Shown in pieces: positions 4,494-28,767 of a DNA stretch of 64,000 nt. The notes below the pieces were generated by a model. That model was given only the letters and a program-made list of their open reading frames with translations. It did not search any database and was not told the origin of the DNA. Position numbers and translations under genes: made by a program. The stretch spans positions 6,174,231-6,238,230 of the forward strand of contig CAXIPT010000006.1 of the NCBI GenBank assembly GCA_964030475.1, in the 5' to 3' direction. The stretch comes from Tethya wilhelma (taxonomy: Eukaryota > Porifera > Demospongiae > Tethyida > Tethyidae). Each line of letters opens with the position of its first letter. The stretch's first letter is position 1.

Positions 4494-5850
4494 ATGTATA
4501 GACGACTTTTGACTTCTATTCTTTCCTTGTGTCACTACCAACTTCTGCTTTTCAAAACAGGTAAACAGTTTATGTTGCCATCTGTGATTATATTGTTGCA
4601 TTAGTCAGCAAGCATCTGCCATCAAAGAAATTGGCCACTGATGGGAGCCTAGCTATTATGTTTTAATTAATCAATACCAATCACCACTTGAATAGGTTCC
4701 TGTACCCTAACATCCAACGTCACTAATGGTGCATCTTGTCTTGGAGATGTGATTGCCTTCACATGCACACAAGAACCTCAGTTACTTCGATGGAGTATTG
4801 TAAGATCGGGAACAGTACTTGGTTCAGCTCTGTTCAGTTTATCTCATGATCAACCTCCTCTTGAACGAACACTGTCAAACAGTGAAATCAGTGGAACAGC
4901 CTCCCTCATCTCCATCTCTCCCACATTGGTGTCCACTCTCACCATTACTGTTACAAGGGCACTGCAAGATAAAGATGTGGTGGAATGTGCTGGAGGCTCT
5001 CAGTCTGTGCAGACTTTAGAGATCAACATTGATACAAGTATGAACTCTAGCTAAGACTAAGTAGTAATTCATGTGGTTTCATCCTCCTGATTGTCTGCAT
5101 GTATCAGTGAAGAGAGATGGTCTCAGACCCTCAAGAAGTAGTGTGTGAAAGAGGAAACACACTGGTGTGAATAATTTGTCAGTTAAGACTGTCTATGATT
5201 CATGCTGACATAATAAATTCTCATTGCTACACATTGCAGTTGGTTGCTCTCCTCCTTCCACTCCAAGAGGTGTTGTTGTTGAAGAAGTGACTTCAACTAC
5301 CCTAATCTTTGGTTGTGATGAAGGTTATTCCCCTAATGGGACAATGGCAGCTGTGTGTGTGGCCACCGATACCTGGAGACCTGACCCTGCTACCTGGGAG
5401 TGTGTTGCCAATGCTTCTACCTCTGAAATGCCTACAGAAAATGGTGAGGCTGATAAGTTTTCACTACTACAATTAAGGGTCAGCACCATGCACATGCACA
5501 TACAGGTTATTACGGGTTCCAATTTCACTAGACTAATCATTAGTACAGTACTACCTTGATACATGTAAATAAACTGGAGTCTTACACCTAATATAGGACC
5601 TAAACTGAATGTCACATTTATTGGAGCTGGTGTTGGAACAGGAGGTGCATGTGTCTTACTAGTAGTAGTGCTGGTTGTTGTGGTGGTTTGCATTGTACTG
5701 AAGAGAAAGAAAACAAGGAAGACAATTGAAACATCAGAACAACCTGAACATTTATACAATGATATATTGACAATACAGTCTACTGAAAAGAACAATGTTA
5801 TTGAACTTGAGAAAAATGTCGCATATGGACCGATCAAAAAATGGACATAA
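4494..5850 (+). CDS. Receptor A: signal peptide-Ig-CCP-TM-tyrosine tail
   Basis: Four exons, all joined in phase 1: 4494-4560 (signal peptide starting MYRRLLTSILSLCHYQLLLF), 4696-5037 (Ig-like domain with CLGD, FTCTQ, LLRW and VVECAGG), 5240-5443 (one CCP/sushi domain: GCSPP, FGCDEGYSP, AVCVATDTW, TWEC), and 5597-5850 (glycine-rich stem, helix of V/L residues, KRKK stop-transfer, cytoplasmic tail). Total 288 aa. The tail has YNDILTI and, 23 residues later, NVAYGPIKKWT. VAYGPI fits the ITIM pattern [ILVS]xYxx[ILV]. It is thus a small type I receptor. Introns are 135, 202 and 153 bp. The whole unit is duplicated downstream as the decayed copy at 7365-8563. Ligand unknown; a recognition or adhesion role is inferred. 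Confidence 0.85.
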
Positions 5851-7364
5851 TTTCGTATAAATTCCATGCAAAATGTAAGGATACAAAACAAAGCACTGTA
5901 CAAAAGCTTATGACATAATTGGACCCTGAGTGTGAGTGAAACAACATAATACAACTTCAAAGATGTGTACAATAAACTCTACTAGAAACAGTTCAGTTTC
6001 AAAATGCATTATGTCAACAGGTTGCAAGTTTATAATAAATACTTGTATGAGAAAATGTCCACACACATTCATGATAATTATTTTATGTACACAACTTCAA
6101 ACCAGGTATACAATACAATGCAATTAGTAATAAAAACTCTGCAGAATACATGTCAACAGGTTGAAAGTTTATACACAACTAACCTCATTCCCAGGCCACT
6201 TATAATACTTAATAATAGTTTATTAATTAATCACAATGTCATGTGATTGTATGTAGTTTCACTCCAAAATGGGTATATATAGTAAATGTTGTACACAGTG
6301 TTTATGGAACCTGTTTAATTTGAAGGAAAACTTTGTGTACTATTAGCTAACAACATTTTAATTAAGATAATAATGAGTAGAGTTACTAGAGTACTGGTTG
6401 TAATTTTTATAATATAATATTATAACTACAATTTAAAGCGATGGAATCAGCTATAATATAATATTATAACTACAATTTAAAGCGATGGAATCAGCTATAA
6501 TATAATATTATAACTACAATTTAAAGCGTAATAAGTCTGAAGGAATTTGTCACCAATATGAAAACAATGTGTATACAATTATGCATAAAAAATATAAGTG
6601 TCCATCGGTTGCTGTCTGTAATCGATAAAGGGCTGAGTGCTTCTTGAATGACTGTGCATGGAATCATACAATGGCAGAAAATGATGTGAAATGGACAATG
6701 AAATTTATACATGAGCTACGTACACATAATTATACCATTTCAATGGTTTCCAATCATCACCATAGAGTGGAGGGCTACAAGGATCGAGATAAACAAACTT
6801 TCATCACATTTTGACCATAATCCTTTACAAAACTTAATTAGTGCAAGATCATCACACTATTCCATGGTGAATTAATGTTTCCTCAAATATTACATTATGT
6901 CATAACCCCCACTTCCTTCATCTTGTTTCTTGAAATCAGTCACAGTTGATTCTCCATTGGCTGAATAATCATACTACCATTGGAGGACATACCTATATAC
7001 AGATGAAAGAAAAAGTATCTTGTTTGAATCTAATTTCAAGACTATAATTAATAAGTGGCAATTGATACTAGTAATCATATAATTATGTAGTGCTGAAGTT
7101 ACATCAGTAGAGCTGTGAAGACAGTTAAGAATAGAACAAGAGACACAACAAATGCTGCTATACACAGAGTGTCTCGAAACGTTTCAAAGTCCTTTCTCTC
7201 TTCACTCTGGTTACAACGTTAGGTACATCAAGGGTTGTTTTAGACGACCTTTTACCAACTTTGACTGTTCGGCTCGAGCGCTGCGCTCTTGACCGACCGC
7301 GCGCGGTCGTGGGTACCGGGTGCATGCATAGAATCTGATGATAAACAGGGCAACGAGAAGAAAT
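5851..7364 (+). other. Intergenic spacer between A and its decayed copy
   Basis: AT-rich sequence. From about 5870 to 6200 it is the 3' flank shared with the second copy (8580-8950), which shows that the duplication unit runs past the stop codon. It holds a 44-bp tandem repeat at 6408-6529. No exon is supported. GACGACCTTTTACC at 7229-7242 resembles the block found upstream of three paralogues. Confidence 0.5.
6408..6529. repeat. 44-bp tandem repeat, about 2.7 copies
   Basis: The unit contains TATAACTACAATTTAAAGCG followed by ATGGAATCAGC and a TAATATAATAT run. Copies are spaced exactly 44 bp apart and appear identical. Confidence 0.9.
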
Positions 7365-8563
7365 ATGTATAGACGGGTGTTTCAACTTTTGACTTCTATT
7401 CTTTCTTTGTGTCACTACCAACTTCTACTTTTCAAAACAGGTAAACACTGAGCTCATGTTACCTCTGTGATTTAGTCAGCAGGCATCTACCTGGCTACCA
7501 TCAAAGCAATTAGCCACTGATGGAAGCCTAGCTATTATAAGTATATCAATCACCACTTGAATAGGTTCCTGTACCCTAACATCCAACGTCACTAATGGTG
7601 CATCTTGTCTTGGAGATGTGATCACCTTCACATGCCACACACAAGAACCTCAGTTACTTCGATGGAGTATTATAAGATTGGAAACAGTACTTGGTTCAGC
7701 TCTGTTCAGTTTCCCTCGTGATCAACCTCCTCTTGAACGGACATTGTTAAACAGTGAAATCAGTGGAACAGCCTCTCTCATCTCCATCTCTCCCACAGTG
7801 GTGTCCACTCTCACCATCACTGTCACAAGAGCACTACAAGATAAAGATGTGGTGGAATGTGCCGGAGGCTCTCAGCCTGTGCAGACTTTAGAGATCAATA
7901 TTGATACAAGTATGAACTCTAGCTAAGACTAAGTATATAATTCACTGGCCTCCCGATTCAGCCGATTGTCTGTATCAGTGAAGAGAGATGGTCTCCAGAC
8001 CCTCAAGAAATAGAGTATGGTAGAGAGGAAACGGGTTAATTGGTGTGAATAATTTGTCAGTTAAGACTGTCTATGATTCATGCTGACATAATAAATTGTC
8101 ATTGTTCTTTCAAACTTCTACTTGCAGTTCACTGCTCTCCTCCTGCCACTCCAAGAAGTGTTGTTGTTGATGAAGTGACTTCAACTACCTGGGAGTATGT
8201 TGCCAATGCTTCTACCTCTGAAATGCCTACAGAAAATTTAAATGGTGAGGCTTATAAGTTATCACAACTACAGATATCTACCTTGATACATGTAAATAAA
8301 CTGGAGTCTTACACCTATAGGACCTAAACTGAATGTCATATTTATTGGAGCTGGTGTTGGAACAGGAGGTGCATGTGTCTTACTAGTAGTAGTGCTAGTG
8401 GTTGTGGTGGTTTGCTTTGTACTAAATTAAGAGAAAGAAAACAAGGAAGACAACATCAGAACAACTTAACCTGTAAATTTAAATATAGAAATAAAAGCAT
8501 CCTGAAAAGAATATTGAACCTGAGAAAAATGTTGCATATGGACCAATCAAAAAACAGATATAA
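7365..8563 (+). pseudogene. Receptor A': truncated tandem copy of A
   Basis: Exons align with A: signal peptide 7365-7440 (three extra codons), Ig 7565-7909 (one extra codon), CCP 8128-8244, TM 8321-8430. The CCP exon has lost 31 codons between two CTACC sequences. That removes two of the four cysteines, and the last cysteine codon TGT has become TAT, so the sushi fold is destroyed in frame. After the TM helix a four-base insertion creates TAA at 8428, directly after CFVLN, and cuts off the tail. The relic tail downstream still reads NVAYGPIKKQI to a stop at 8561-8563. A 215-aa membrane-anchored stub could still be made, but decay is more likely. The neighbouring A is intact. Confidence 0.8.
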
Positions 8564-9344
8564 TTTTGTATAAGTTCGAATTCCATGCAAAATGTAAGGA
8601 TACAAAACAAAGCACGGCACAAAAGCTTAACATAAATGGACCCTGCAGTGTGAGTGAAACAACATAATACAACTTCAAAGATATGTATAATAAACTCTAC
8701 TAGTAACGAACAGTTTATTTTCAAAATGCATTATGTCAACAGGTTGCAAGTTTATAATAAAGAGTTTCATTACTTGTATGAGAAAATGTCCACACACATT
8801 CATGATAATTATTTTATGTGACACAACTTCAAACCAGGTATACAATACAATGCAATTAGTAATAAAAACTCTGCAGAATACATTATGTCAACAGGTTGAA
8901 AGTTTATACACAACTAACCTCATTCCCAGGCCACTTATATATAGTACTTAATAATTGTTTATTAATTAATCACAATGTCACTAGTCGACTTCCAAACTAG
9001 AACTGCAGCACTACCTCTGTTGTGAAATTTGACCTGGGCCAGGCCATTTCAGTTGGAGCTCTTTCTCTCTATATCATATAATAATTATTATATAGGTAGA
9101 GAAATTAAAACAAATTTTTCGCATGGATAGTTATTATTACAGCACACTTATAATGCTTAATAATTGTTTAAGATATTAGGTCATAAATTGCCAAAAAAAT
9201 TCATCTGAGTGTCAGATTTAGACTATTCAATTTTACTGTTTACTTCTTTGACGACCTCTACCCGAGAGCATATGTCATTCCACCACCACCCACAGCTATA
9301 GCCACTGGATTCCAAGAAGGAGACACGAGACTGGGTTTCCCAAC
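8564..9344 (+). other. Spacer upstream of receptor B
   Basis: The first 400 bases are the duplicated 3' flank of A. Nothing coding is visible. It carries the conserved block at 9247-9267. Confidence 0.5.
9247..9267 (+). promoter_or_regulatory. Conserved upstream block of receptor B
   Basis: TTTGACGACCTCTACCCGAG lies about 80-100 bp before the ATG of B. Near-identical blocks in the matching orientation lie upstream of K (15870-15890) and C (19341-19361), although their coding exons differ. It could be a core promoter, a 5' UTR motif or an old exon; which of these is unknown. Confidence 0.5.
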
Positions 9345-12300
9345 ATGGATGACAAGTTGGGCACGTTTGTTGCTGTAGTAAGTCTACTGTCACTGTGTTG
9401 CATATCTGTACAAGGTTTGTCTTTATCAAATTTCCTACAAACAAAGAGGAACTGCATGTGGGAATTCACTTTTTGTTGCTGTTTCAAAATACTTGGTGTC
9501 CAATGATGAGATTTGATACTCTAGCATTCTAGAGCACCTATTTGGGGCAAGCCTGAGCAAGCCCCCTTTTAGTCTTGTCAGTGGTAGCTTGCGGGGTCTG
9601 TCTGTCTGTCTGTGTTGTACTTCTTTCTGCACATTTCTGCAAATAAATTGATCATGGGTACTGAGTCCAACTGGGATAATTATACAGAGCTTAGCATATA
9701 GTTTAGCACCAGAGAAGGTGACAGCTAGTCTGGTTGACTGCTGAGCTGGCACTAATTCACAGACAGTAATTACTATGATGTCATCTCAATAAACATGTTC
9801 TATGACCTTTTGTGACATTTTTTTGTTTTGTTTCTAGCGCGATCTGGGTACCACATTTGGATACTAGCTTCATGCACGTACATGTATTGCACATTCGTCA
9901 ACAAAAAACGTCACAAAATGTCACGCATTTTATTTTTAGTAGCAAAACAGTGCTTATATAGTGACACAGTTCCTCTTTAATTGTAGGTACCAGTTCCTTA
10001 ACATCCAACATCACTAGTGGTGCAGCTTGTGCTGGAGATGTGATCACCTTCGATCACTTGCACACAAGACCTTTCTGAGAGTTTTCTTCGATGGGCAGTT
10101 GTTAGATCAAGATCAATAATTATTAGTTCAGCTCAGTTTACATTCTCCCGTGATCAACCTCCTCTTGAACGGACACTGACAGGCAGTGAAGTCAGTGGAA
10201 CAGCCTCCCTCATCTCCATCTCTCCTAGTGCGGTGTCCACTCTCACCATCACTGTTACCAGTCAACTGGATGGAGATACATTGGAGTGTGGTGGAGGTAC
10301 AGCAGGCTCTGTACAGAATTTCACTATCAATATTGCAAGTAAATATTAGAATTAATGGTGATGGGTCTATGCTCTCTCATTGTTTAATTCTTCTCCTCCT
10401 GGATCTGTTAATGTCTCTTCCATTCGTCCACTACAGCTCCTCCCTCAATGCCTCCTCTAAACCTGAGGATAGCTGCCACTGCCAATGGAACAGATTCCTC
10501 TGAAGTGACCTTCCAATGGGACCCTCCCTCAGACAATGGAGGAGATGAGGTGGACAGCTACACTCTGACTGGGACTGGGGGCATCACCACTATCAGTGGT
10601 ATCACTGACACTACAGCCTCTCTCAGTCTCTCTTACAACACTGAGTACTCTCTGAGAGTGGCAGCTGTCAACTGTGCTGGTAGTGGACCACAGGCAGTAG
10701 AACTTACATTCACGTTAATGAGAGGTAACTAGTTTCACTTTTCACTGTACCTATGTGTACAATAAATACAACTAAGTATTTTATTAGTATAATGCTTTCA
10801 ATGTTTCCCTTCAGTTGACTGTTCCTCTCCCTCTGCTGCTGATGGAGTGGTCATTGAACCATTCACTGCTACAACAGAGGGATCACTGATCTACTTCCAA
10901 TGTGGTGAGACCTTTGTACCCAACACTAGAGTAGAGGCAAGGTGTGAGGCAAGTGGTTCATGGTCTCCTGATCCTGGACAGCACAGTTGCCTGCTAGGTA
11001 TGTAGTGTGTACTTAGTCAATCAGTTACATGATAATTTTGCAATCATTATTAATCTTCATTCACATGTACAGTTGACTGTGGAGAGCCTCAGCTTCCTGA
11101 TAACAGCACTCTGATCAATAGCACTGGTACATTGAAAGGTCAAGAGGTCACATTTCAGTGTAATACAGGACCTGATACTGGACTCCTCATCACTGCTGTG
11201 TGTACCAGTGTCCCTGGTGGTAGTGAGGGAGTGTGGTCTCCAGAGCCTGGGGTGGTGGTATGTGGAGGTGAGCTCCATGGTGATATTCATGAATGTTGAA
11301 ATGTAAATTGTGTGGTAATGCAAAGTAAACTTGGTTAATGCAACACCACATTTTAGCTTGTCTGTAGTGTGCCAAAGAGAACTCTACCAAGCAATGTATT
11401 GTGTGAATATTTTGTTATTATTTTTCTTCTCCTAGTGACCTGCTCTTCTCCTGGTGCTCCTGCTAATGGTTTCCTTGGTGAAGTGACTCCAACTACCCTA
11501 ATCTTTGGTTGTGATGAAGGGTATTCCCCTCAGGAGACAGTGACAGCTGTGTGTGTGGCCACTGATACCTGGAGACCAGACCCTGCTACCTGGGAGTGTA
11601 CTCCTGTAGTGACTGTTCCAACAACTACTGATCATACTCTTCCCAGCCTTGGTAAGTCAACAGTGTGTGTGTGTGTGTGTGTAGGTGCATGTGTGGGTGT
11701 GTGGGTGTGCATGAGAAACAATTTGAATTCAACAATTCTTCCGATCAATTGATAAACAACTTTCCTCCATTCAATTTGCCCCCAGTGGACTGTGGTTCTC
11801 CCCAACCTCCTGTCAATGGCATGCTGTCTCTCTTAGCTAGTACACTAGAGGGGTCAGAGGTCAAGTACCAGTGTGGCAATGCCACTGCGACTGCCGTCTG
11901 TGGTAGTAATGGAAGGTGGTCACCTGACCCTGGACAACAAGTGTGTGGATTTCAATCAGGTATAATTATACACTATTGCTTTGTCTTTGCATGCATACAT
12001 GTAAATATGACCAATAATTATTGTTATTGAAGTATAAAGAGGTGAATACACATGTTTACAGTAAAACTCTTCCTTTTAGAAAATCAAAGTGCCATAACAA
12101 CAGCTGTCTCTAGTGCAGCAGTGCACGTGGTGTGTTCTGTTGTCTTCTTCATCGTTGGTCTTCTCTGTGGTCTCCTCCTCTACCATGGTGTCAGGAGATG
12201 TAAGGAGAGTCATGTGACCACCAGTGGGACATACAGTGAGAGACCACACCCACCAGCTCCAGTATATGAGGACATAGTACCAACTGAGAGTAGGAAACAG

Positions 12301-12351
12301 ACTGGAATTGAACTACAGGAGAATGTAGCATATGGACCAGTCAAGAAATGA
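9345..12351 (+). CDS. Receptor B: Ig-FN3-CCPx4-TM-tyrosine tail
   Basis: Eight phase-1 exons: 9345-9414 (signal peptide MDDKLGTFVAVVSLLSLCC), 9987-10338 (Ig-like), 10437-10724 (FN3, with FQWDPPSDNGG and the Tyr/Leu core YSLRVAAVN), four CCP exons (10815-10997, 11073-11267, 11436-11651, 11786-11959), and 12080-12351 (TM plus tail to the stop). Expected about 581 aa. The third CCP is closely similar to those of A and C. The tail carries VYEDIV and, 22 residues on, NVAYGPVKK at the C-terminus. The Ig exon is 352 nt, not a multiple of three: GATC appears inserted at about 10053-10056, breaking the frame. It may be a real mutation or an assembly error. Sushi domains act in binding and adhesion; the partner here is unknown. 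Confidence 0.85.
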
Positions 12352-13346
12352 TACAGGGTCTATGTAGAATTGTTGTACTGCCATGAGAATATTACTGCTT
12401 ATTCTTTAATTAGATTTACCAAGTAGTATGTTTTAGGTTCATTTATGTCTTGTGTCACATTTAGACCAAAAGTGCTCGTATGAGTTTTATTTTTTGTTGT
12501 CTGTTTATTATTGCTCAATCATTTTCAAAGAACAACAATAACATGTTTGTGTAAACTTTATTCACACAAGTTTATGATGCATGGATGGTTTCCAATAATA
12601 ATATTATTATAATAGAAAAGCAAAAAATTTCTGTGACAATAATGTTGTATTCTTATCAATTTTTTTGTTGTAAACAAGTTAAAACAACCAATTTTAAGAA
12701 GAAATTCATTTTTCTGAGAAAAATAATTATCTGATCATTAATTTGCAGCAGAGTGCTTACTCATTCTATGAATGTTTAGTACTATGGCCATGATAAGGGA
12801 GTCTATGAATATAATACGTAAAATTATTGGATGCACACCTCTCTAAACACAATGTATGCTATTAAAGCTGAGCCTGTATCATTAATATGCCCTGAGTGTA
12901 TATAAATGGAAAGTAATAAATTAAGTGTATAAAGATAACTGAGAATACTTATATAACAACAATAGCATCATGTATACTTATGTAAAATGGTTTTCTAGGC
13001 AACTGGTTTAATTAACTTGTTGACAATACGATAATCATGCCCTGCGCTAGTAATGAGTAATTTTAGATCTATGATTTTTTTCACTGACAGCTGCCAAAGG
13101 GCTTCATGTGGATCCACCCACTTTTGTGAAACTGGTAAACAAAACTATAACTTCACAAACTGAATTCAAAAAAGTTATGAATGATTCACACACCAAGGCA
13201 AAAATGATATTAAGTGATGCACAAAGTCTAAAAAACAAGTGATAGTTTGACTGAAATTTTTTTGCTGGTTTTTGCTATGTACATTCATAGTAACAATGAA
13301 AATTTATGTACACCAACAATGTACAGGTATGATAACAACTTTAACA
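12352..13346 (+). other. 3' flank of receptor B
   Basis: AT-rich sequence with no supported gene. The stretch 11298-13346, including three B exons, reappears without visible change at 26407-28455. It ends at N13347. Confidence 0.6.
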
Positions 13347-13347
13347 N

Positions 13348-13480: not shown

Positions 13481-13500
13481 TGGCTTTGATCGTACAGAAT

Positions 13501-13552: not shown

Positions 13553-14514
13553 ATTGATCGAAAGCGAGCAATCGAGCTTTCTTGACCCTTGATGGGGCCA
13601 ATTTTTATTGCTTTGACCCCTTGATCACATCTTGATCCCGGTAATGGGTGTTAGTACAGTGGGTATGGTCATGACCACCCCATGAATGATCTGTTGGAAT
13701 GTAATTCAAGTACATGAGATTACTTTTACTGTCCCCATCTGTGATTTTTGTAGCTACAATAATAATTATATTATCTGTTTACTGTTTCATGAATGACGAT
13801 TTTGACCTACTTGCAATGTGTATTGTTGTAGTCTCACTGGTCATGCCATTATCAAGATCCACACACCTCACTCTCACTCCTTCCAGTCTACTAGTGGCGG
13901 TGGTTGCTAGGGTGGAGATAAAGTTAGGAGGACTGATGGTGGCAGCTGCTGTGAACACACCAACACCAGGAATGTCAAGTTCTCTCGTAGATGTAATACC
14001 ACCAATAAAAGAGGTGGATTGCTGAGCCCCTGAGGTCTGTACGACAGTCCGTCTCAAGTTACCCCCAGTGATAGTGCAGGTGAAGACCACCTCCTCTTGG
14101 AGACAAGCCACACCATCATAGTTGGATGAGAGAACATGTGCAAATCCTTCTGTATAGAGTTAGAATGTACAACAGATAAAATAGTAATTTACTATGGACA
14201 TGTCATGGAAAGTTTGGTCAAGCATCTTAGCTAGCATGCCGACTTCATTTGAGGCTGAGCATCACACAGCCTGAGACATTCCTTACACAATAGTATCAAT
14301 AGTTATGACACTACGTGATGCTTAGGCTTCATAAAGTATCGATCTATTATGGTCAGAGGATGCATGCATTCCAGTCTTCTTCTTTTTTTTCCCTCCTCTG
14401 TAAGGAGATTACCTAAGGACCAGTCGCGTTAATATTGGCTCTGAATATAACTGAGTGGTCAGTACGCAAGTTTTGTCATATTCATGACATATCAAATCCA
14501 ATAATAGCCTCGTA

Positions 14515-16797: not shown

Positions 16798-19016
16798 CTA
16801 TAATTTGATCGGTCCATATGCAACATTTTCCTTAAGTTCAATGTTCTTTTCAGGAGGCTCTATTGTCAATATTTCATCGTATATAGGTTCAGGTTGTTTT
16901 GATGTTTCATTTGTCTTGCTTGTTGTCTTTCTCTTTAAGATTAAGCAAACCACCACAATAATCAGCACTACTACTAGTAAGACACATGCACCTCCTGTTC
17001 CAACACCAGCTCCAATAAATATGATGTACAGTTTAGGTCCTATAGGTGCTAAACAGCATTTCAGACTTCAGTGTACTTGTATAAAGGTTAATGAGTACTG
17101 TACTTATGACATAGCCTCGTGCCCAGGCTCCCCTTTTATACCTTTCACTCACGGAAAGGAAAGGTTTCCGTGAGTGAAAGGTCAAAGGGGGAGCCTGGGT
17201 ACGAGGCTACTAATGACAAGCTATTGAATAAGTCCAATACTACAGTGAAATTGGAACCATACCTTGTGCCACAAAGGTGCATGGATGCATGTGTGGTGCT
17301 GACCCTATAGCTAGTAGTAGTGATAAGTCTCACCATTTTCTGTAGGCATTTCATTTGTTTGGGTGTGCAATGTAGAATCAAATGTTACAGCGGCAACACA
17401 CTCCCAGGTAGCAGGGTCAGGACTCCAGGTACCAGTGGCCACACACACTGCTGTCACTGTCCCCTGAGGAGAATACCTTTCACCACAACCAAAGATTAGG
17501 GTAGTTGAAGTCACTTCATTAACAACAACACTTCTTGGAGTGGCAGGAGGAGAGCAGTGAACTGCATGCAATTAGATTGATAAGAACAATGACAATTATT
17601 AGCTTCATGGACAAATATTCATACCAACCTGTACACTCTATCCCCTGAGGGTCTGGGGACCATCTCTCTTCACTGGTACAGACAATGGTGATCTCATTAG
17701 AGGGAAACAGACCCTCATTACACTGGAATGTGACCTCTGATCCATTCCTCATACCATTAGTGGGCCCACTCAGGACAGTACTGTTGACAGGAAGAACAAT
17801 AGCTCCACAGTTGACTGCAATATTAAGGAATTAAATATAACCACTTGGATATAGGAAAGAATGTAACCAACATGCACTGACTATTATTTTATTTTACTTT
17901 CCACACAGTTAGGATTAGGGTTCCACCTTCCATCTCCCCCACACACAGACATCACCCTCCCCTCTGGTATGAACCCTGGTCTACACTGGTAGGAGACCAC
18001 AGAGCCGACTGATGAACTGGTATATGGTTCAAAAGTCACATTTGGATTGGATAACAGTGGACAACCAACTGAAGAGAGTCACAAAATCATAACATTATGC
18101 AGACAATAATTTATTATAGTCATATTAATTATATGTATATAGGAGGGACCCAAGACAACATACCAAACTCAACAGGTTCTGCTACAGTAGGAGCACTGTT
18201 ACCCACACAGTTCTCAGCTGTGACACTCACAGTATATCTCTTATTATAACCGAGAGATAGTGTTGCACTAGTGCCAGAGGTAACTGTGACAGGAGGCTGT
18301 GTCTTTGGTGAGGTCTCGACGGTGTATCTATGAGCATCCACAGCTCCTTTACCATTAGTTCCTGGAGGATCCCAGGCTATGTCAACGGTAACATTGGAAA
18401 TTCCATTCTGAACAATCACCACTATCACATTCTCAGGAGGAGAGGGAACAGCTACATGAGATCATGCAGGATGCGTGAATCAAGCTGCATGCAGGCAGAT
18501 GAACTGCATGGATTATTACAACTTAGCTATACACTACATACTTGTATCAATGTTGATCTGTATAGTCTGCACAGGCTGAGAGCCTCCAGCACATTCCACC
18601 ACATCTTCATCTTGCAGTGCTCTTGTGACAGTGATGGTGAGAGTGGACACCACAGTGGGAGAGATGGAGATGAGAGAGGCTGTTCCACTAACTTCTCTAC
18701 TTGTCAGTGGCTTTTCAACAGGAGAAAGATTACGACGGAACCTGAACAAAGCTGAGCCAACAACTGTTCCTGATCTTAAGATACTCCATCTAAGTAATGA
18801 GCCAGGAGGATCTTGTGTGCAGTTGAAGGTGATCACATCTCCAAGACAAGGCGTGCCATCATGATTGATGTTGGATGTTAAGGTGCTGGAACCTATTTCA
18901 GTAGAACGTCATTGATTTGCATGAAAATAGACCATCTTTTTACCTATTTTGAAAAGCAGTTGATAGTGACACAATAAGAAAAAAATACTGAAAAGATGGA
19001 AGCGTGAACTCATCAT
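16798..19016 (-). CDS. Receptor C: Ig-FN3-CCPx3-TM-tyrosine tail
   Basis: Seven exons in phase 1: 19016-18944 (signal peptide MMSSRFHLFSIFFLLCHYQL), 18892-18542 (Ig-like: CLGDVITFNC, LLRWSI, VVECAGG), 18451-18164 (FN3, with IAWDPPGTNGKG), 18068-17898, 17814-17629 and 17561-17334 (three CCPs, each with four cysteines and the Trp), and 17039-16798 (glycine-rich stem, TM, tail, stop). Total 512 aa, with no frame break. The tail reads IYDEILTI and, 21 residues later, NVAYGPIKL at the end. It is a type I surface receptor, closest to A in its Ig and TM exons and to B in layout. A MITE sits in its last intron. Ligand unknown. C is a useful intact reference for the family. Confidence 0.88.
17112..17209. 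mobile_element. 98-bp hairpin MITE in the last intron of C
   Basis: TAGCCTCGTGCCCAGGCTCC and inverse ends; nearly the whole element folds on itself. It is flanked by CTTATGACA and CTAATGACA, a 9-bp duplication with one difference. Confidence 0.85.
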
Positions 19017-19340: not shown

Positions 19341-19361
19341 TCTCGGGTAAAGGTCGTCAGA
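19341..19361 (-). promoter_or_regulatory. Conserved upstream block of C
   Basis: On the minus strand this is TCTGACGACCTTTACCCGAG, about 325 bases before the ATG of C. It is shared with B and K. Confidence 0.45.
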
Positions 19362-20435
19362 AATGTAAGCAACAAATTTAGCAGTACGTCACTCTTGACT
19401 GGTGGCACAATTACAAGGATCCCCTCCTCACTGACTGTGAGAGTTACCCTGTCTACAACCAGTCTAATGAAATTCTTATTGAAATAGCCAACACTTGATC
19501 TTGTTTATAGCATTCTTGATTTGACCATAAGTTCAACCAACATCACTGCTATAATTTGTCTTTCCTTTCTCTCTAAAGCAACACTTGAGCATTAGATTTT
19601 ATGTTCCTACTATGTATGTAGATGAAATTTTAAAAGCTGTGCATGGTTGCTCAAGAGATTAATGTGTTTACATGCCTTCTTTTTCCAATCTAAGATTGTG
19701 CTAATTATTGTATATATATAAACAAGCTTGGTAGGAAATTAAATTTCCAATCTTTATATATAGATATACTTCAAAAACACCCTTAAATTAATCTTGTCCC
19801 ATCAATCAATCTGCAAATTAAACACATACTAACCATGCATGCTGTAGTTATTAGTGTTGTTCCAATTAAAGGTTTTATCAGGTAAAGAGGAAGAGGAAAG
19901 TTATAATGGAGGAGGCATTTGATCTGTGCCACATATATATTAACCTCGGTAATATAACTTCTTACAACTTTAATTTGAGATCTTTACTCAATTGTGCATC
20001 ACATGAAATTCTTCTTTTCTAGCTTTCATGTCTTCATGCATGCTTATCAAAAATTTGACATATATCATGTATGCGTTTTTGTGACCTGTATATATGTGTA
20101 TATGATCTCTCGTATGCATAGTTTGACGATATATTCATGTTTTGTCAAACTTTTGCTTCTATAGACCCGTTGCACGTACAAGCATCACGTGCTCAAAAAA
20201 TAAAATCACAAAAAATTTACGGAGAAAATTTCGAGTATACGGAGATAAGCCCCGCCCGTTGGAGGACAAGAGACAAGGGGGGGGTCACAACCATACCTGC
20301 CATACGACCGTTTGCGACCGCGGTCAAGAATCTTGACCACCCAAAATCGCCCTTGACCTCTTGACCAAAGGCTAGAAACCCTCTTGACCGCTTGACTTCT
20401 TTCCAATTTACTACTTGACCACAAATAAAATGAAA
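19362..20435. other. Intergenic region, no gene seen
   Basis: AT-rich, with one stretch (20290-20422) holding many TTGACC/CTTGACC copies on the + strand. Short open frames lack splice or domain support. Confidence 0.5.
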
Positions 20436-21636
20436 GGCACTGTCACTGGAATTTTGGTCCTGAAAATTTTGGTCCCCCGGACCAAAATTTTCAAGGAATT
20501 ATCTGAAATTTTTGGTCCCGGCCCATTTTTTTCAGAATTGTTCCCTGAAAATTTTGGTCCCCCACTGAAAATTTTGGTCCTAGGTGTGCGCTACCTCGGA
20601 CCATAATTTTCAGATGTGGTCCCTGAAAAAAATTGCCCCCCTTAGCCAGAAACAGGCTATTTATACTACAGTATACTGTTGTCGGTGGGTAGGAATCAGA
20701 GTTGAGAGCTGTGTTTTTATATTAGATGCTAATGATAATTTTCATAATTATTAAACTGATAAACTATGAATGAGTAATGTAACAGTCAGAAATATAATTT
20801 AAAGAACAAAAGTAGCATAAACAATCTAAACACAATTTCAGTAGTAAACAGTATACTATGAACACAAAGCGGCAAAGCCATCTACCACTCATTACATAAT
20901 ATGGGTTTGCTGCATTGAACCATTCATTGCAATGCCCCTGATCTCTACCATTCTGGAACCACAACAAGCTAAAGCACCCTAACATATTTGCATGGATCAA
21001 TACAGAGGCTCGAGGCTGTGACCTCCAAGATTCAGAGTTTCCGACAGTGGTGCGGTAACAGCTAGACCTAGAAGATGCAGATTTAAGGAGGCTGCGGTAT
21101 GGAGCCATCTTGATCAATCACCATCTCAATGCAATCAGGCATCTGACTCAGTGGACATATTTTACTTGCATTATCATCTGTGCGTAACTATGTTATTATT
21201 TTTTGCTTTATGACTGATTTGATATGCTATTACACTAACTGGTAAACTGATTTGATTTAGATAGTAAGAATTGATTTAGCGAAAAGTTGATGTATTACTA
21301 TTAATTGTGGAAAGTTGCACTGGTAGGATCTATGATCTGAGTCCTGGAGTTGATCACGTTCACGTGGCGCGGGAGTTGATGCTCGCGTTCGCTGCCACTT
21401 GGCAGGGCCTGTGAAGGTCCAACTGAGTTTGTAGAGTTTACTTTTACATTTACTTAGGCTTGTTCTACCCAGAAGTATCTTATAACAGAGTCTACAAAGT
21501 AGCCTGTGGCTAGTGAGAACTTCTTTCTTACTCGGACCAAAATTTTCAGGGTAGGGCCGAATTTTTCGGTGATTCGCGAAAATTTTGGTCCGCCCGGACC
21601 AGAATTTTCGCCGGACCAAAATTTCCGTGACACTGC
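20436..21636. mobile_element. Foldback element with GGTCC-rich ends
   Basis: The left end begins GGCACTGTCACTGGAATTTT and the right end is its inverse (ending GTGACACTGCC). Both termini consist of many inverted and direct copies of GAAAATTTTGGTCC. The interior (about 20650-21500) is unique and holds no recognisable transposase. No clear target duplication was seen. Confidence 0.65.
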
Positions 21637-21648
21637 CATATGCATGGT

Positions 21649-22476
21649 TAGGGTGTGCAATATGAAAAATCAACTTTTGACTTTTGAACAATTAATTCAT
21701 GCAACATGTAGAGTAGGTTGGTACTTAAACCAGCGCATCTTCAATTCCTGATCTCTGTCGCTGAAGTTAAAAAAACCCCGTAAGTTTCATAATTGCATTG
21801 TCAGCAATTTTTACCGCTAAAATAGCAATTATTTGCCATTTTTGCTTACATGCAAGACAGAAGGGAACCCCGATACATTGCGTTAGTAGAGGAGGGCCTT
21901 ACCAATTCTCTGATAGAGTTGAAACAAACCTCTGTTATTGGTAACCATCTGGCTGATTCTGTTGAAAGTAGTTAAAGTACCAAAAATTTAGAAGTCATTT
22001 GTTGTAGGTTGCAATATGAAAAATCACTATCGACTTTTGAACAATTAATTCATGCAACATGTAGAGTAGGTTGGTACTTTAACCAGCGCACCTTCAATTC
22101 CTGATCTCTGTTGCTGAAGTTAAAGAAAACCGTAAGTTTCATATTGCATTGTCAGCAAAAATTTACGCATTTTTTACCGCTATAATCGCAATTTGCCATT
22201 TTTGCTTACATTCAAGAGAGAAGGGAATCCCTATACATTGCATTAGTTAGAGGAGGGCCTTGCCAATTCTCTGATAGAGTTGAAACAAGCCTCTGTTATT
22301 GGTAACCATCTGGCTGATTCGGTTGAAAGTAGTTAGTACCAAGAATTCAGAAGTCATTTGTTGATAGGAGACAACGGAGTTTGAAGGTGCGCTGGTTTAA
22401 GTTTCAACCTACTGTACATATTGCATGAATTAGTTGTTCAAAAGTCGAATGTTGATTTTTCATGTTGCACACCCTA
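21649..22476. mobile_element. 828-bp element, about 95-bp TIRs and 7-bp TSD
   Basis: Ends TAGGGTGTGCAA and inverse, with inverted similarity over about 95 bp. Perfect flanking repeats GCATGGT (21642-21648, 22477-22483). The left end and interior are internally duplicated: about 360 bp at 21655-22010 repeats at 22011-22370. Non-autonomous, no ORF. Confidence 0.85.
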
Positions 22477-22483
22477 GCATGGT

Positions 22484-23110
22484 GCACAACCCTCGGCATA
22501 TATACACTGTGATAAATGCAATACAAATATTATTTATTGCATGCATTATAATGAGGCAATGAGGAAGGATATCGAGGCATGATTGTACGTATACTGTCAG
22601 CATTGCAATCTGAGACTCATGTAAAATACATTTTCTATACTTTACTGCAGCTGTATAACATCGAGGCTGGCATTGCATGCAGACTGTACTGTGCATGGGC
22701 GTGGCTACTTAGGCAACATCACGATCATAATATTATCACAAGCTATCTTGCTGCAGAGTTTGCAAAACACAAGCGTTTGGACTAGAAATACTCTGTTACG
22801 TCTAAGCATTTATACTAGAGTCAGTGTCGCTATCTCAGACTTCCAGTGTTCTAGCGAGGTGCAGCTAGCGCACGATCAGGCAACTCTCGTTAGCTCGCTA
22901 TAATTATACGTATACGTAGTGCTATAGTGGGTGGGGCCACGTAGCCAAAATGGCCGCCCGAGCGATGGCTCGGACTGAAAATCCTGGCATAGCTCAAGAA
23001 CTATAAGCTTTTAGCTTCTGATACACATATTTTTTTTAGATGAACATCAGTGCTCCATGTTTATGTCCTTAATTTTCAGAGTAGACTTGCTGTTCTTCAG
23101 ATTAAGAGTG

Positions 23111-23153
<43 letters not shown>

Positions 23154-23347
23154 AAAACGACTACTATAACCCTTTCGGCGTGTTTCACACGCCGAGGCAG
23201 TCTGCACTAAGACCTCACTTTTACCAAGAGTATATAATAAACCAAGGAAAGAGAGTATCGAACGCGCCATTGCCCTGTACAATATGTATGCGGAAAGTAA
23301 CGTGACTTCCTGGCAACCGCACGTGATTCAATTTGCGTTTGTGCAGA
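22484..23347. other. Spacer before the 425-aa ORF
   Basis: No gene supported. Contains (CA)n at 23111-23149. A stretch near 22860-22970 (GGTGCAGCTAGCRCA, GGGGCCACGTAGCCAAAAT) is repeated at 25858-25950, on the other side of the two convergent ORFs, so those ORFs may lie within one mobile unit. Confidence 0.45.
23111..23149 (+). repeat. (CA)n microsatellite
   Basis: Uninterrupted CA dinucleotides, about 19 units. Confidence 0.95.
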
Positions 23348-24625
23348 ATGGAAAATACTGCGGCCACTGTGACTCGGAATTCCACAGCCTCCATAGCAGC
23401 AGCTACTGGGACAAAGAGAAAGCGAAAAACCATTACAGTGAACCCTGATCATAGTAAAGAAAACAAGAAGCCTAAAGTCACAAAGGGAAGACGCGCGTTA
23501 AAAAAATCACAGAAGGCTACAGTGACAGCTACTATATGGAGTCAGGCTCAGAGTAGCCACAGCGCCGCCAACTCTGAGGCTAGCTCTGGTCTCCTGCCAG
23601 CTGTGTTGGAAGAGGTGGACAATCAGCTACATGTACAATGGTATCCGTGCAGAACGGAGTTTTGGAACAAGTTAAAACTGAGTGATTTGATAGCAAATAT
23701 ATGTAAGACTCTAGGTGAGCTCTACTGTACAACTTACAAATCGAATGATAAAGGGAAAGATAAGTATATAAAGTTTCAACTGGAATGGCATAACAAATGT
23801 AGTCTCATGCTGACAGAGGATACTATTGACCAATCACATTCATTATTTACTATAATTCACCAGTGGCGTTTATTTAGAGCCAAACATAATGTAGGTTCTG
23901 TTCACGATGCTAATGCTGTGCTAATATCAATTCAGACTGCTGTGTATAATCACCTCACTAAACTTACAGCATCTGTTGCAAGTGAACTTAGTTCCACCAG
24001 TAGTGCAGATACGGCTTCAGTCAGTAAAGATGTAGAAAATTCCGAACCAGATGATGTGTACTACCGTTTTGGTGGGGCAGCGATAGCTGAAATGCTGCAC
24101 AACCGATATAAGAGAATCCACAGCTGTCCATTAGAGAAACGAGGTTCTGTTGCTGATGAAATTACTATTTTGAAGGCTATACAAACTAGTGACAAATCCC
24201 ATGTACCACAATCACTTTTGTATCGAGATCGGGGCTTCATGTATTTTCCCGACTGTGGTTTTGTGAAGTTTATTAAAATGGTTGATCAACTGGTCAAGTC
24301 TGTTGCAAACAGTGATGGAATTCAGCAGCATGGAAAAAACATCATAGCCATAGCAACGACAAAGGTAAAGAGTGATGAGGGTTTGAAGCTGCACTTTATT
24401 GAGGCACTATCCACCAAGCTTGACAGTGTCAAGGAGTTATCATTGCCTGTTGATGCAGTGTACAATGAATTTCTCAGAAAGCTATGTAATACTCGTCTTG
24501 GGGAGTTTATGGACTCTTTTAGACAGATACAAGCTTCTAAAAGTGGAACAGCTACACTTAGTGGACAGAATTTGAGAGACACTTTATTATCTGAACACAT
24601 AGCTACAAAAACACGAATTCAATGA
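23348..24625 (+). CDS. Intronless 425-aa ORF, basic N-terminus, unknown
   Basis: The longest well-behaved single-exon ORF in this part. The frame opens at 23333, but the first ATG is at 23348 (MENTAATVTRN). The N-terminal 60 residues are basic with KRKRK, a likely nuclear signal. The rest is soluble, without TM helices: YYRFGGAAIAEMLHNRYKRI, YRDRGFMYFPDCGFVKFIKM and NEFLRKLCNTRLGEFMDSF are its most distinctive segments. I do not recognise the family. It ends 73 bases from the convergent transposase-like gene on the other strand, and similar sequence flanks the pair. A partner protein of a DNA transposon is one possibility; a host nuclear protein is another. Confidence 0.6.
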   Translation: MENTAATVTRNSTASIAAATGTKRKRKTITVNPDHSKENKKPKVTKGRRALKKSQKATVTATIWSQAQSSHSAANSEASSGLLPAVLEEVDNQLHVQWYPCRTEFWNKLKLSDLIANICKTLGELYCTTYKSNDKGKDKYIKFQLEWHNKCSLMLTEDTIDQSHSLFTIIHQWRLFRAKHNVGSVHDANAVLISIQTAVYNHLTKLTASVASELSSTSSADTASVSKDVENSEPDDVYYRFGGAAIAEMLHNRYKRIHSCPLEKRGSVADEITILKAIQTSDKSHVPQSLLYRDRGFMYFPDCGFVKFIKMVDQLVKSVANSDGIQQHGKNIIAIATTKVKSDEGLKLHFIEALSTKLDSVKELSLPVDAVYNEFLRKLCNTRLGEFMDSFRQIQASKSGTATLSGQNLRDTLLSEHIATKTRIQ

Positions 24626-24698
24626 ACACATATTATTAATACAATACATTTTATCATGTTGTGAAAGTTATAAAAAATTTAATGTTACAGTACTTTGA

Positions 24699-25014
24699 TT
24701 ATGACTTTTTCTTGTTGTATTGCTTTTTCTTGAGAGTAGGACCCTGTGTATGCAGAGAGGCGTCTCGGTATCCCTTTCCACTGTGATGGCATGATGCAAC
24801 AGCTGACTTCACTAGGCAAGCAGCTCGTGCTGTTGCATAATTGGCAGCATCTAGCTTCCCACCTGAAGCATACTTGTATTGACTGAATAAGGTCTCGACT
24901 GCACTGCCAGACACTCTCAATGGAGAGATGAAATTATATGGATGTCTCTTCAAGAAGTCCTCAGTGAACTGTTTGAAACCGTATACATCAACTCTTAGAA
25001 GATCCCAAGCTATA

Positions 25015-25046
<32 letters not shown>

Positions 25047-25313
25047 NACCAAAAAGGAGGTATACCTACATATTTTTAGCTGCAAATCACTTCTACGTAT
25101 GTTTTTTACCATTTCTTGGCTGCTTCCACTGTCTTGTTCAATTTTTTTCGACACACCTACTGATCTAACCAACCAGGGACGAATAAATGGAAAAAGAATA
25201 CGTACTTCTAAAGAGCTGATGTCAGACAGTTTGTGTTCTAAATTTGGCACTCTTGCAATGATCACAAAGAGAGATTTTAGAAAAAGTGGTACATCAAAGA
25301 AGCTGCCCATTTG
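24699..25313 (-). CDS. Transposase-like protein, C-terminal part
   Basis: At least two exons on the minus strand. The 3' exon (25009-24699) begins after TTGCTTATAG and encodes WDLLRVDVYGF, then LRVSGSAVETLFSQYKY, GGKLDAANYATARA and a lysine-rich end. The pattern 'S-G-x-A-V-E-T-x-F-S ... G-G-K-L-x-x-x-N' resembles the C-terminal region of DNA transposases in which an Asn/Gly-rich dimer segment follows the catalytic core, but the exact family is not certain. The upstream exon (to about 25313, ATG in MGSFFDVPLFL) is separated by an intron with a long poly-T tract and N25047. The catalytic core is not visible, so this copy is partial or broken. Confidence 0.45.
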
Positions 25314-25535
25314 AAGTTGATTGTCTGCCAATGCAGTTTATTTAGTATTGAACGCGAGTAGATAATAATTTGTACACGTGGCAGATCAGAGTGAAATCTT
25401 TTGTGGCTGCTACAGAACGGCCAGCTGAGGTGAAATATGGTTGGTGACAAGCAGAGAAAGGGTTGAGGTATTACTGGAGGTCAGACTGGTCTACTCAAAG
25501 CTGCTAACTTCACCTCAAAGTGACTGGGTTGCGCA

Positions 25536-26405
25536 CACGAGATCAATTTTCGCGAGATCAACTCCCATGTGATCAACTTGTATTAGTTCAACTTTGCACA
25601 AGATCAATATTGTTGTCAATCAACTTCTCACTAGATCAATTCTAACCAAATCAATTTTGCTTTTGAAGTCAACTCAAATCAACTGCAAATATAGTGCTGA
25701 TCCAAAGTGTGCTACAAAACTTTTGTCTCTCTCTCTCATGCACTGAAGGCATGTTTTTTGTATGATTGTACCCTGGTACACTGAGTTTTATCTAGCTCTG
25801 TAACTTTCCAAGCGTCCTATATACAGTCAACTTCTCTTTCCCACGTTGTTGTAGCCAGGTGCAGCTAGCACATGCTCAAGCGCTTTAGATATATGTAGTG
25901 ATGCAGCTATGTAGTGTGACTGAGGGGGACCATGGGGCCACGTAGCCAAAATTGTGTTTCAGTACTGATAATGAGTAGCCACTGGCCTTAGCTCTAGTGA
26001 GTCATCTGTTCAGATGTAGCAGTGTGGGCCACCTAGTAGGTTACACTTATTAGTACTTCTCTCCAGCAGATGACGATGCTCCTGGTGAAGCTTATATCAA
26101 CTCCCATGCTCAAGTCATTTTGTGTATGTGTGTGCCGTGTGTGTCTGTTACTCAATTATCTGAATCATCTGGATCATGAACTTCTGCACATGCTGAGACT
26201 TAGTTACATCAACCAGCCAGCGCCTATGTAGGACTATGGCATTATACGGTGACACAGATAGAAGAGACAGTTTCTAATCTGAGTTGATTTGGTTAGAATT
26301 GATCTAGTGGGAAGTTGATCGACAACAAATTGATCTCATGCAAAGTTGAACTAATGGGAGTTGATTGAATGGGAGTTGATCTCGCGAAAATTGACCTCGT
26401 GTGTG
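25536..26405. mobile_element. About 870-bp element with GATCAA-rich TIRs
   Basis: Inverted repeats of about 120 bp at 25536-25665 and 26287-26405, built of GATCAACTCCCAT-like units spaced 10-14 bp apart. The right end runs straight into N26406 and the duplicated B segment, so that border is an assembly join. Confidence 0.7.
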
Positions 26406-26406
26406 N

Positions 26407-28455
26407 GAAATGTAAATTGTGTGGTAATGCAAAGTAAACTTGGTTAATGCAACACCACATTTTAGCTTGTCTGTAGTGTGCCAAAGAGAACTCTACCAAG
26501 CAATGTATTGTGTGAATATTTTGTTATTATTTTTCTTCTCCTAGTGACCTGCTCTTCTCCTGGTGCTCCTGCTAATGGTTTCCTTGGTGAAGTGACTCCA
26601 ACTACCCTAATCTTTGGTTGTGATGAAGGGTATTCCCCTCAGGAGACAGTGACAGCTGTGTGTGTGGCCACTGATACCTGGAGACCAGACCCTGCTACCT
26701 GGGAGTGTACTCCTGTAGTGACTGTTCCAACAACTACTGATCATACTCTTCCCAGCCTTGGTAAGTCAACAGTGTGTGTGTGTGTGTGTGTAGGTGCATG
26801 TGTGGGTGTGTGGGTGTGCATGAGAAACAATTTGAATTCAACAATTCTTCCGATCAATTGATAAACAACTTTCCTCCATTCAATTTGCCCCCAGTGGACT
26901 GTGGTTCTCCCCAACCTCCTGTCAATGGCATGCTGTCTCTCTTAGCTAGTACACTAGAGGGGTCAGAGGTCAAGTACCAGTGTGGCAATGCCACTGCGAC
27001 TGCCGTCTGTGGTAGTAATGGAAGGTGGTCACCTGACCCTGGACAACAAGTGTGTGGATTTCAATCAGGTATAATTATACACTATTGCTTTGTCTTTGCA
27101 TGCATACATGTAAATATGACCAATAATTATTGTTATTGAAGTATAAAGAGGTGAATACACATGTTTACAGTAAAACTCTTCCTTTTAGAAAATCAAAGTG
27201 CCATAACAACAGCTGTCTCTAGTGCAGCAGTGCACGTGGTGTGTTCTGTTGTCTTCTTCATCGTTGGTCTTCTCTGTGGTCTCCTCCTCTACCATGGTGT
27301 CAGGAGATGTAAGGAGAGTCATGTGACCACCAGTGGGACATACAGTGAGAGACCACACCCACCAGCTCCAGTATATGAGGACATAGTACCAACTGAGAGT
27401 AGGAAACAGACTGGAATTGAACTACAGGAGAATGTAGCATATGGACCAGTCAAGAAATGATACAGGGTCTATGTAGAATTGTTGTACTGCCATGAGAATA
27501 TTACTGCTTATTCTTTAATTAGATTTACCAAGTAGTATGTTTTAGGTTCATTTATGTCTTGTGTCACATTTAGACCAAAAGTGCTCGTATGAGTTTTATT
27601 TTTTGTTGTCTGTTTATTATTGCTCAATCATTTTCAAAGAACAACAATAACATGTTTGTGTAAACTTTATTCACACAAGTTTATGATGCATGGATGGTTT
27701 CCAATAATAATATTATTATAATAGAAAAGCAAAAAATTTCTGTGACAATAATGTTGTATTCTTATCAATTTTTTTGTTGTAAACAAGTTAAAACAACCAA
27801 TTTTAAGAAGAAATTCATTTTTCTGAGAAAAATAATTATCTGATCATTAATTTGCAGCAGAGTGCTTACTCATTCTATGAATGTTTAGTACTATGGCCAT
27901 GATAAGGGAGTCTATGAATATAATACGTAAAATTATTGGATGCACACCTCTCTAAACACAATGTATGCTATTAAAGCTGAGCCTGTATCATTAATATGCC
28001 CTGAGTGTATATAAATGGAAAGTAATAAATTAAGTGTATAAAGATAACTGAGAATACTTATATAACAACAATAGCATCATGTATACTTATGTAAAATGGT
28101 TTTCTAGGCAACTGGTTTAATTAACTTGTTGACAATACGATAATCATGCCCTGCGCTAGTAATGAGTAATTTTAGATCTATGATTTTTTTCACTGACAGC
28201 TGCCAAAGGGCTTCATGTGGATCCACCCACTTTTGTGAAACTGGTAAACAAAACTATAACTTCACAAACTGAATTCAAAAAAGTTATGAATGATTCACAC
28301 ACCAAGGCAAAAATGATATTAAGTGATGCACAAAGTCTAAAAAACAAGTGATAGTTTGACTGAAATTTTTTTGCTGGTTTTTGCTATGTACATTCATAGT
28401 AACAATGAAAATTTATGTACACCAACAATGTACAGGTATGATAACAACTTTAACA
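26407..28455 (+). repeat. 2,049-bp copy of 11298-13346
   Basis: The segment matches at a constant offset of 15,109 bp with no difference that I could see, introns and flank included. It starts directly after N26406. Its source segment ends directly before N13347. That pattern fits a duplicated contig or haplotype end better than a biological duplication. Confidence 0.85.
26545..27460 (+). CDS. 3' half of receptor B, duplicated
   Basis: Exons 26545-26760 (CCP), 26895-27068 (CCP) and 27189-27460 (TM plus tail ending NVAYGPVKK) repeat the last three exons of B exactly. No upstream signal peptide, Ig or FN3 exon precedes them. The sequence before 26406 is a mobile element. Treat as an artefactual or 5'-truncated copy, not as a separate gene, until the join is resolved. 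Confidence 0.6.
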
Positions 28456-28474
28456 AGTAAGCACTATTCTTTTT

Positions 28475-28767
28475 TTACTTATATGTCATAATTGGTCGAT
28501 ATGACACATTTGGCTTCACCTCTATTCCCAGTTGTGGCACACTAGGAAGTATATAATCGTACTCCTGTTCAGGGATCTTTGTGACTGGGAGATCAAAACT
28601 GCTAAGTTCTTTACTAGTCACATTCAGTTTCTTCCTGTTACATTTCTTGACAGTAATACATATTATTAGGATAATAATACATGTCAGTATTATTACAACT
28701 GTGGCTGTAGGTACCACAATGATGATTAACGTAAGTGGGAGAGTGACTTCATTTTCATCAGTGATTT
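28475..28767 (-). CDS. Receptor D: TM and tyrosine-tail exon
   Basis: A single last exon (phase-1 entry after TTCTGATTCCAG) encodes EITDENEVTLPL, a helix of about 28 I/V/L residues, KKCNRKK, and a tail with EYDYILPSV and, 20 residues on, NVSYRPIMTYK at the C-terminus. The helix sequence is unrelated to A/B/C, but the tail keeps the shared module (Y..IL, IEV, NVSYxPI). VSYRPI fits the ITIM pattern. The upstream exons are not identifiable. N28891 lies only 124 bp away, so the gene is broken by the assembly. Confidence 0.65.

Follow-up and report, generated by a model that had tools for sequence, protein, structure and literature searches.

A family of predicted sponge receptor genes with exchanged exon cassettes and a shared two-tyrosine tail

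Receptor genes in the window

The window analysed here, a stretch of 64,000 nucleotides (nt) of the sponge Tethya wilhelma (C6:6174231-6238230), holds members of a multigene receptor family in which one kind of cytoplasmic tail, with two tyrosines, is reused under different ectodomains. A single genome (124.6 Mb) was searched, and gene models were built from splice signals and sequence alone, so that exon joins are predictions. A sponge source is supported by an exon at C2:20687341-20687466, which reads DCGASYAFSA with Ser in the position of the catalytic Cys of cathepsins and is 88% identical to a stretch of silicatein. Gene A (4494-5850, +) is an intact type I receptor gene encoding a signal peptide, a V-type Ig domain, one CCP (Sushi) domain, and a transmembrane (TM) helix with tail. 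Gene C (16798-19016, -) is likewise intact, with signal peptide, Ig, FN3, three CCP domains and TM plus tail. Both belong to a set, A to D with a relic A′, for which a preliminary description of the window had claimed a common tail. The tail is indeed common. The other members are less complete: gene B (9345-12351, +) has a 4-nt insertion in its 352-nt Ig exon and is out of frame in this assembly, A′ is a relic, and D is a TM and tail exon only, with no ectodomain in its contig (Table 1).

The family Ig domain has the B- and F-strand cysteines and the core tryptophan of a V-type fold. The fn3 family of Pfam matched above its cut-off in both FN3 exons (B and C), while genes A, B and C have eight CCP exons in all, of which five passed for Sushi and three were below the cut-off or unmatched; in B the first CCP alone passed, and the remaining three were recognised by the family profile. 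Genes A and C together have seven internal exons and B has six; all but the B Ig exon are in phase 1-1, with lengths divisible by 3 and GT/AG edges. Signal-peptide exons of A, B (candidate exon) and C end in phase 1, and in all three genes a single last exon encodes the TM helix and the entire tail. These uniform phase-1 borders mean that exons are exchangeable without a break of frame. Family Ig exons also encode an additional cysteine nine residues before the B-strand cysteine (22 of 22 in one set; 15 of 17 in its alignment column) and FN3 exons an invariant one (17 of 17); the two perhaps form an interdomain disulfide.

Table 1. Coordinates of family exons in the window and of recurrent arrangements in the genome
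Feature	Position	Strand	Remark
Gene A signal-peptide exon	4494..4560	+	phase 1 out
Gene A V-type Ig exon	4696..5037	+	phase 1-1
Gene A CCP/Sushi exon	5240..5443	+	phase 1-1
Gene A TM and two-tyrosine tail exon	5597..5850	+	
Relic A′	7561..8573	+	Ig exon, CCP remnants, tail interrupted by stops
Gene B signal-peptide exon (candidate)	9345..9414	+	5647 copy has 80% identical DNA
Gene B Ig exon	9987..10338	+	352 nt, 4-nt frameshift
Gene B FN3 exon	10437..10724	+	
Gene B four CCP exons	10815-10997, 11073-11267, 11436-11651, 11786-11959	+	
Gene B TM and tail exon	12080..12351	+	
Lone Ig exon	13815..14144	-	different Ig type, just beyond contig join
Gene C TM and tail exon	16798..17039	-	
Gene C three CCP exons	17334-17561, 17629-17814, 17898-18068	-	
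Gene C FN3 exon	18164..18451	-	
Gene C V-type Ig exon	18542..18892	-	modelled
Gene C signal-peptide exon	18944..19016	-	
D, single TM and tail exon	28475..~28767	-	YDYIL...NVSYRPI; at contig end; 5′ edge approximate (coordinate of the preliminary description)
B/D pairs	window 12351 and 28475; C6:5656.1/5656.5, 5690.4/5690.9, 5720.7/5721.2 kb		window pair ~1 kb apart after overlap removal
Tandem TM-tail exons	C6:5656538-5658169; C5:1442828 and 1444532; L070 46-396 and 794-1147	-	all on this strand

Histories of ectodomain and tail exons

Of 17 genes in which Ig, FN3 and tail are all present, one identical twin was dropped, and the other sixteen, all complete, were compared in 120 pairs, or 105 for CCP2 and CCP3. 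Pairwise identity of the tail was uncorrelated with that of IG, FN3, CCP1, CCP2 and CCP3 (rho -0.01, -0.01, 0.17, 0.02 and -0.05; Mantel p 0.48, 0.52, 0.08, 0.42 and 0.62, respectively). FN3, CCP1 and CCP2 were mutually correlated (rho 0.64-0.81, p 0.001), and Ig was tied more loosely to these three and to CCP3 (rho 0.24-0.59). Because tail relatedness follows that of no ectodomain exon, we conclude that cassettes have been exchanged between gene copies. This bears out the earlier proposal of a family of sponge receptor genes that reuse one tail, and the tail has a history independent of the ectodomain (rho -0.05 to 0.17).

Some pairs of genes combined exons of very different divergence. In 27 of the 120 pairs, an exon with synonymous divergence (dS) below 0.15 was combined with another above 0.7 or saturated. 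Window gene B and the 5647+ copy differ by dS of 0.03-0.19 from FN3 to tail and of 1.48 in Ig; B and 5621+ by 0.12 in FN3, 1.31 in Ig and 1.45 in the tail; B and 5721- have tails 96% identical (dS 0.03), with 41% identity in FN3 (dS 1.37) and 27% in Ig. Borders of DNA similarity in these three comparisons fall near exon edges. Those at 10431 and 10433 lie 6 and 4 nt ahead of the FN3 exon, and blocks of similarity span 9336-9417 around the signal exon and 12102-12347 inside the TM/tail exon (12080-12351). With other copies, similarity ends elsewhere (11906, inside CCP4; 11052, before CCP2), so some breakpoints are off exon edges.

Family members elsewhere in the genome

Searches of the genome with single tails returned 37 and 36 matches. 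Exon profiles were applied to fetched stretches, namely a 130 kb part of the first cluster, 10 kb on the upstream side of the window, ~3 kb around single matches and short pieces elsewhere, and related tails merged to 52 places, a number that includes three near-identical twins at N joins, A′, and some relics, fragments and frameshifted copies. At the genome level, then, the tail occurs well beyond the receptors first noted. Tails cluster at C6:5.61-5.74 and C6:6.14-6.32 Mb, and others lie on C5, C2 and C1; the tail at L065 has a stop and that at L062 a frameshift. The layout Ig-FN3-CCP(3 or 4)-TM/tail was found in 16 of 18 chains holding both Ig and tail. On C5 (L070), two genes bear a related tail on a different ectodomain, in which only Sushi is above the Pfam cut-off and the family Ig profile gives weak matches (E 3e-5 at best).

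An apparent second B (26407..28455, +) is an exact 2,049-nt repeat of 11298-13346 bounded by two N joins. It was set aside, as its exact identity and its ends at N joins make it a probable unmerged contig overlap; a genuine recent duplication is conceivable but less favoured. In the 5.61-5.74 Mb cluster, N joins likewise lie at or close to the ends of three further near-identical pairs, two of which contain tails. Also recurrent is a convergent unit of one B-type and one D-type gene or tail exon (Table 1).

At three places, two TM-tail exons follow each other on the same strand, and no family ectodomain exon was found between them (Table 1). In the C6 tandem an N join separates the two exons, and in the C5 tandem the upstream exon is without the second motif; such exons are possibly alternative last exons. 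Another tail type, with the motif ENxxY[GA]P, is found at C6:5714634-5714858, where the motif is present twice, and at 5740517.

No relative of gene C reached E <= 10 when 8,000 candidates from 5.8 billion proteins were scored, in a collection that seems to be without sponge proteins. Tails compared with PDB and Pfam matched no family above the cut-off (D against TMEM154, E 1.1e-5, was below that of Pfam), and searches of an open-licence library of papers brought up no title or abstract on a sponge receptor family with such a tail, which is not proof of its absence in print.

The two tyrosine motifs of the tail

Of 38 tails with both tyrosines, 32 are distinct, and in these the residues around the first tyrosine (Y1) were counted; those around the second (Y2) were counted in 41 motif rows, which are the 32 tails plus nine exceptions and are not all separate genes. 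The B twin, two inner L052 repeats, three rows with the other tail type (C6:5714634, 5714790 and 5740517) and C5:1444532 were dropped beforehand. In these 32 tails the two tyrosines lie 18-26 residues apart (20-23 in the preliminary description).

Y1 has the consensus P-[VIL]-Y-[ED]-[ED]-[IV]. Position +3 is I in 25 tails and V in 7, and +1 is E in 17, D in 14 and N in one, with +1 and +2 both acidic in 25 of 32. Proline is found at -2 in 22 and somewhere within -6 to -1 in all 32 tails, and 18 have PxxP. At Y2, conservation lies mostly upstream: -8 is I, F or V (41/41), -6 is L, M, V or F (39/41), -3 is N (41/41) and -1 is A or S (41/41). Position -2 is V, L, M, A, S, I or K. Downstream, +1 is G in 34 rows, +2 is P in 35, and +3 is I, L or V in 28 and T, S, W, N, A or R in the other 13. 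Entropy is 0 at -3, 0.46 at -1, 0.93 at -8 and 2.43 at +3, where the stretch from -8 to +3 varies most.

The last motif had been taken for an immunoreceptor tyrosine-based inhibitory motif (ITIM). The pattern [ILVS]xYxx[ILV] fits Y2 in 28 of 41 rows and Y1 in 2 of 32 tails, whereas the core [IVF]-x-[LMVF]-x-x-N-x-[AS]-Y, which is PTB-like, fits 39 of 41 rows. With -8 and -3 far more conserved than +3, we regard the ITIM label for Y2 as weak. By the account of a review, PTB domains take their specificity chiefly from residues on the N-terminal side of the tyrosine, most often in an NPXY motif, and SH2 domains from those on its C-terminal side, v-Src SH2 being shown with pYEEI (PMC3507883). On these residues the Y2 core resembles an NxxY/PTB docking site and Y1 a Src-type SH2 site. 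Our main reason for preferring PTB at Y2 is that its conserved residues are mostly N-terminal.

The ratio of nonsynonymous to synonymous differences (pN/pS) was computed for 32 distinct nucleotide tails (496 pairs; pS 0.57-0.71) anchored on the two tyrosines. It was 0.46 for Y1 -4 to +3 and 0.25 for Y2 -8 to +2, against 0.89 for the juxtamembrane part and 0.85 for the linker, whose alignment is crude because its length varies. By this comparison, constraint is stronger on each of the tyrosine motifs than on the remaining tail.

Encoded partners and a proposed signalling route

A relative of SHP2, with SH2, SH2 and PTP matches in order, is encoded at C9:1427138-1429062; the top PDB matches of its tandem SH2 domains are PTPN11 (best E 2.2e-75) and then PTPN6 (1e-56). 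Five pairs of SH2 and kinase matches in shared frames of equal length stand in tandem at C2:18.979-18.993 Mb, and we infer these genes to be of Src type. IRS-type PTB domains gave 16 matches in the genome, three of them in tandem in one open frame at L069 (C1:341101-342400). Partners encoded in the genome make a signalling route a possibility and do not imply its use.

For the predicted genes, the comparisons above establish independent histories of the cassettes, their exon structure and constraint on the two tail motifs. The reading we put forward goes further and has, we estimate, about an even chance of being right: a type I receptor family made of exchangeable phase-1 cassettes, with a tail read by Src-type SH2 and PTB domains. 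The cassettes would be the V-type Ig exon, the FN3-CCP block and the TM and tail exon. At its tip the receptor would bind a cell-surface or microbial ligand through the V-type Ig domain, and clustering would lead Src-family kinases to phosphorylate the tail. A Src-type SH2 domain would dock at the first site, proline-rich and then Y[ED][ED][IV]. At the second site, [IVF]-x-[LMVF]-x-x-N-x-[AS]-Y and usually then G-P, the docking partner would be a PTB adaptor of the IRS/Dok kind, SHP2 being the main alternative. Swapping of cassettes would let many recognition surfaces feed one signalling module.

Several points weigh against this reading. The tail had been expected to evolve more slowly than the ectodomains, which holds for the two motifs and fails for the tail domain as a whole: its pooled pN/pS of 0.60 is not below that of ectodomain exons (0.56-0.74), and its median dN/dS of 0.46 (unsaturated pairs) is within their range of 0.38-0.62 and above CCP1 and CCP2. 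The near-identity of the tails of four B-type genes (94-98%; dS 0-0.09) is due to recent exchange and not to selection, and the tails share descent, so motif counts are not independent events. The nine extra Y2 rows were chosen by us, and some Y2 rows were located by a pattern containing Asn; yet that pattern lost none of the 35 kept profile-found tails, and four rows missed in one search retain the Asn when read. Y2 lacks the Pro of classical NPxY at -2 and is properly NxxY-like, and its conserved G-P is unexplained by PTB reading. Exceptions occur at both sites: two L070 tails on C5 deviate at each (YEEP at Y1; T at Y2 -6), the tail exon at C5:1444532 has no second motif, Y1 is replaced by His in L059, and in L052 (6129-6506; C6:6170.4 kb) the first-tyrosine block occurs in three repeats, with Ser replacing Tyr in the last.

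An inhibitory receptor, in which the distal tyrosine is an ITIM and both tyrosines recruit SHP2 through its tandem SH2 domains, is possible though rather doubtful. It draws on the ITIM fit at Y2 and the clear SHP2 relative, and the tail spacing resembles that of PD-1 Y223/Y248 in the portion of PMC7078208 used. The position that defines an ITIM, +3, is nevertheless where Y2 varies most, the conserved -8 and -3 are not mainly read by SH2 domains, and Y1 hardly fits. Gly at +1, usual in these tails, lowered binding of SHP1 by PD-1, although PD-1 still uses SHP2 (PMC8631942, in part).

We consider it improbable that these are trafficking or adhesion receptors, with Y1 as a YxxPhi signal for AP-2 and Y2 as an NxxY site for Dab- or talin-like PTB adaptors, serving endocytosis or cytoskeletal linkage. 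Every one of the 32 tails has YxxI/V at Y1 and all 41 rows have NxxY at Y2, and most PTB domains prefer an unphosphorylated tyrosine, by the passage of PMC3507883 consulted. The Pro at -2 of Y2 is missing, however. The acidic +1/+2 and the proline-rich approach at Y1 also suit Src-type SH2/SH3 better by their general consensus.

That tail likeness reflects recent duplication and gene conversion only, with no selective meaning, is very unlikely: the B-type tails and the near-identical twins, including probable assembly artefacts, would fit, but across 32 distinct tails the motifs are constrained and linker and juxtamembrane part are not. Least likely of all is an activating receptor using a Syk-like kinase through an immunoreceptor tyrosine-based activation motif (ITAM): 23 of 32 tails have two Yxx[ILV] motifs, but the ITAM assignment is set aside for its spacing, the 14-22 residues between motifs in all 32 exceeding the 6-12 of the consensus YxxI/L-x(6-12)-YxxI/L, and Y2 +3 is often non-aliphatic.

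Known systems and wider meaning

By description, the sponge family would work most like the FF/FcoR complex of Botryllus schlosseri and the Alr complex of Hydractinia. The excerpted account of Botryllus describes linked, polygenic type I receptors; FcoRs have a signal sequence, a variable-type Ig domain, sushi, two C2 Ig domains, and a TM segment leading into a long tail that carries ITIM, hemITAM or core Yxx[ILV], and uncle fester has 3′ exons in common with fester and an unrelated N-terminal half (PMC12065747). The sponge genes are likewise linked and numerous, with V-type Ig tips and tyrosine tails, but have FN3 and mostly three or four CCP domains where FcoR has C2 Ig, and one two-tyrosine tail with a constant NxxY. 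Alr is a 41-gene IgSF complex with V-set and I-set domains (PMC11999971), for which ITAM and ITIM motifs are reported (PMC12065747). The sponge family differs in its CCP or FN3-CCP stalk, which the excerpts on Alr do not mention, and in a motif that is no clean ITIM.

For the NPXY site of IL-4R (I4R motif), recognised by the IRS PTB domain, the sections used give an influence to positions -9 to -7 (PMC5962649). The sponge Y2 site has in common with this motif and the insulin receptor the Asn at -3 and an upstream contribution, but is without Pro at -2 and the downstream SxSD, and G-P usually follows. Halichondria panicea has diverse, domain-shuffled SRCR and cytokine-type receptors with Sushi, Ig and FN3; their classes rest on SRCR or kinase domains, and the portion of that source seen mentions no such tail (PMC8242945).

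We regard the family as a candidate system for recognition of self/non-self or microbes, and place such recognition ahead of adhesion or clearance, as an order only. Sponges show graft rejection, and we know of no established sponge recognition receptors. The finding supplies concrete loci, a searchable tail motif and a testable signalling route, and documents exon-cassette exchange, including decoupling of ectodomain and tail, in an early-branching animal lineage. If the tail is read by PTB domains, animal recognition receptors with tyrosine tails would have arisen by more than the ITIM/ITAM route. A still broader proposal, which we think unlikely, is a recognition complex with its own bidentate Src-SH2 and NxxY/PTB tail read by multi-PTB sponge adaptors, in which exchange of Ig, stalk and tail cassettes, possibly with alternative last exons, would wire one ectodomain to different outputs; animals would then have a third way of telling self from non-self, next to Hydractinia Alr and Botryllus FF/FcoR.

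Other features of the window

A Pao-type retrotransposon remnant lies at 37537-39300 (+), with Peptidase_A17 above the cut-off and an integrase zinc-binding match just below it. Genes encoding C2 and EGF domains are arrayed in tandem at 46125-57355 (-), parts of them being 67-98% identical (Pfam was run on one copy). The open frame at 61098-61763 (-) would encode a type II TM protein with a coiled-coil stalk and a cytosolic YEQL-x11-YAQL, whose spacing fits an ITAM; it has a weak Lectin_N match, below the cut-off.

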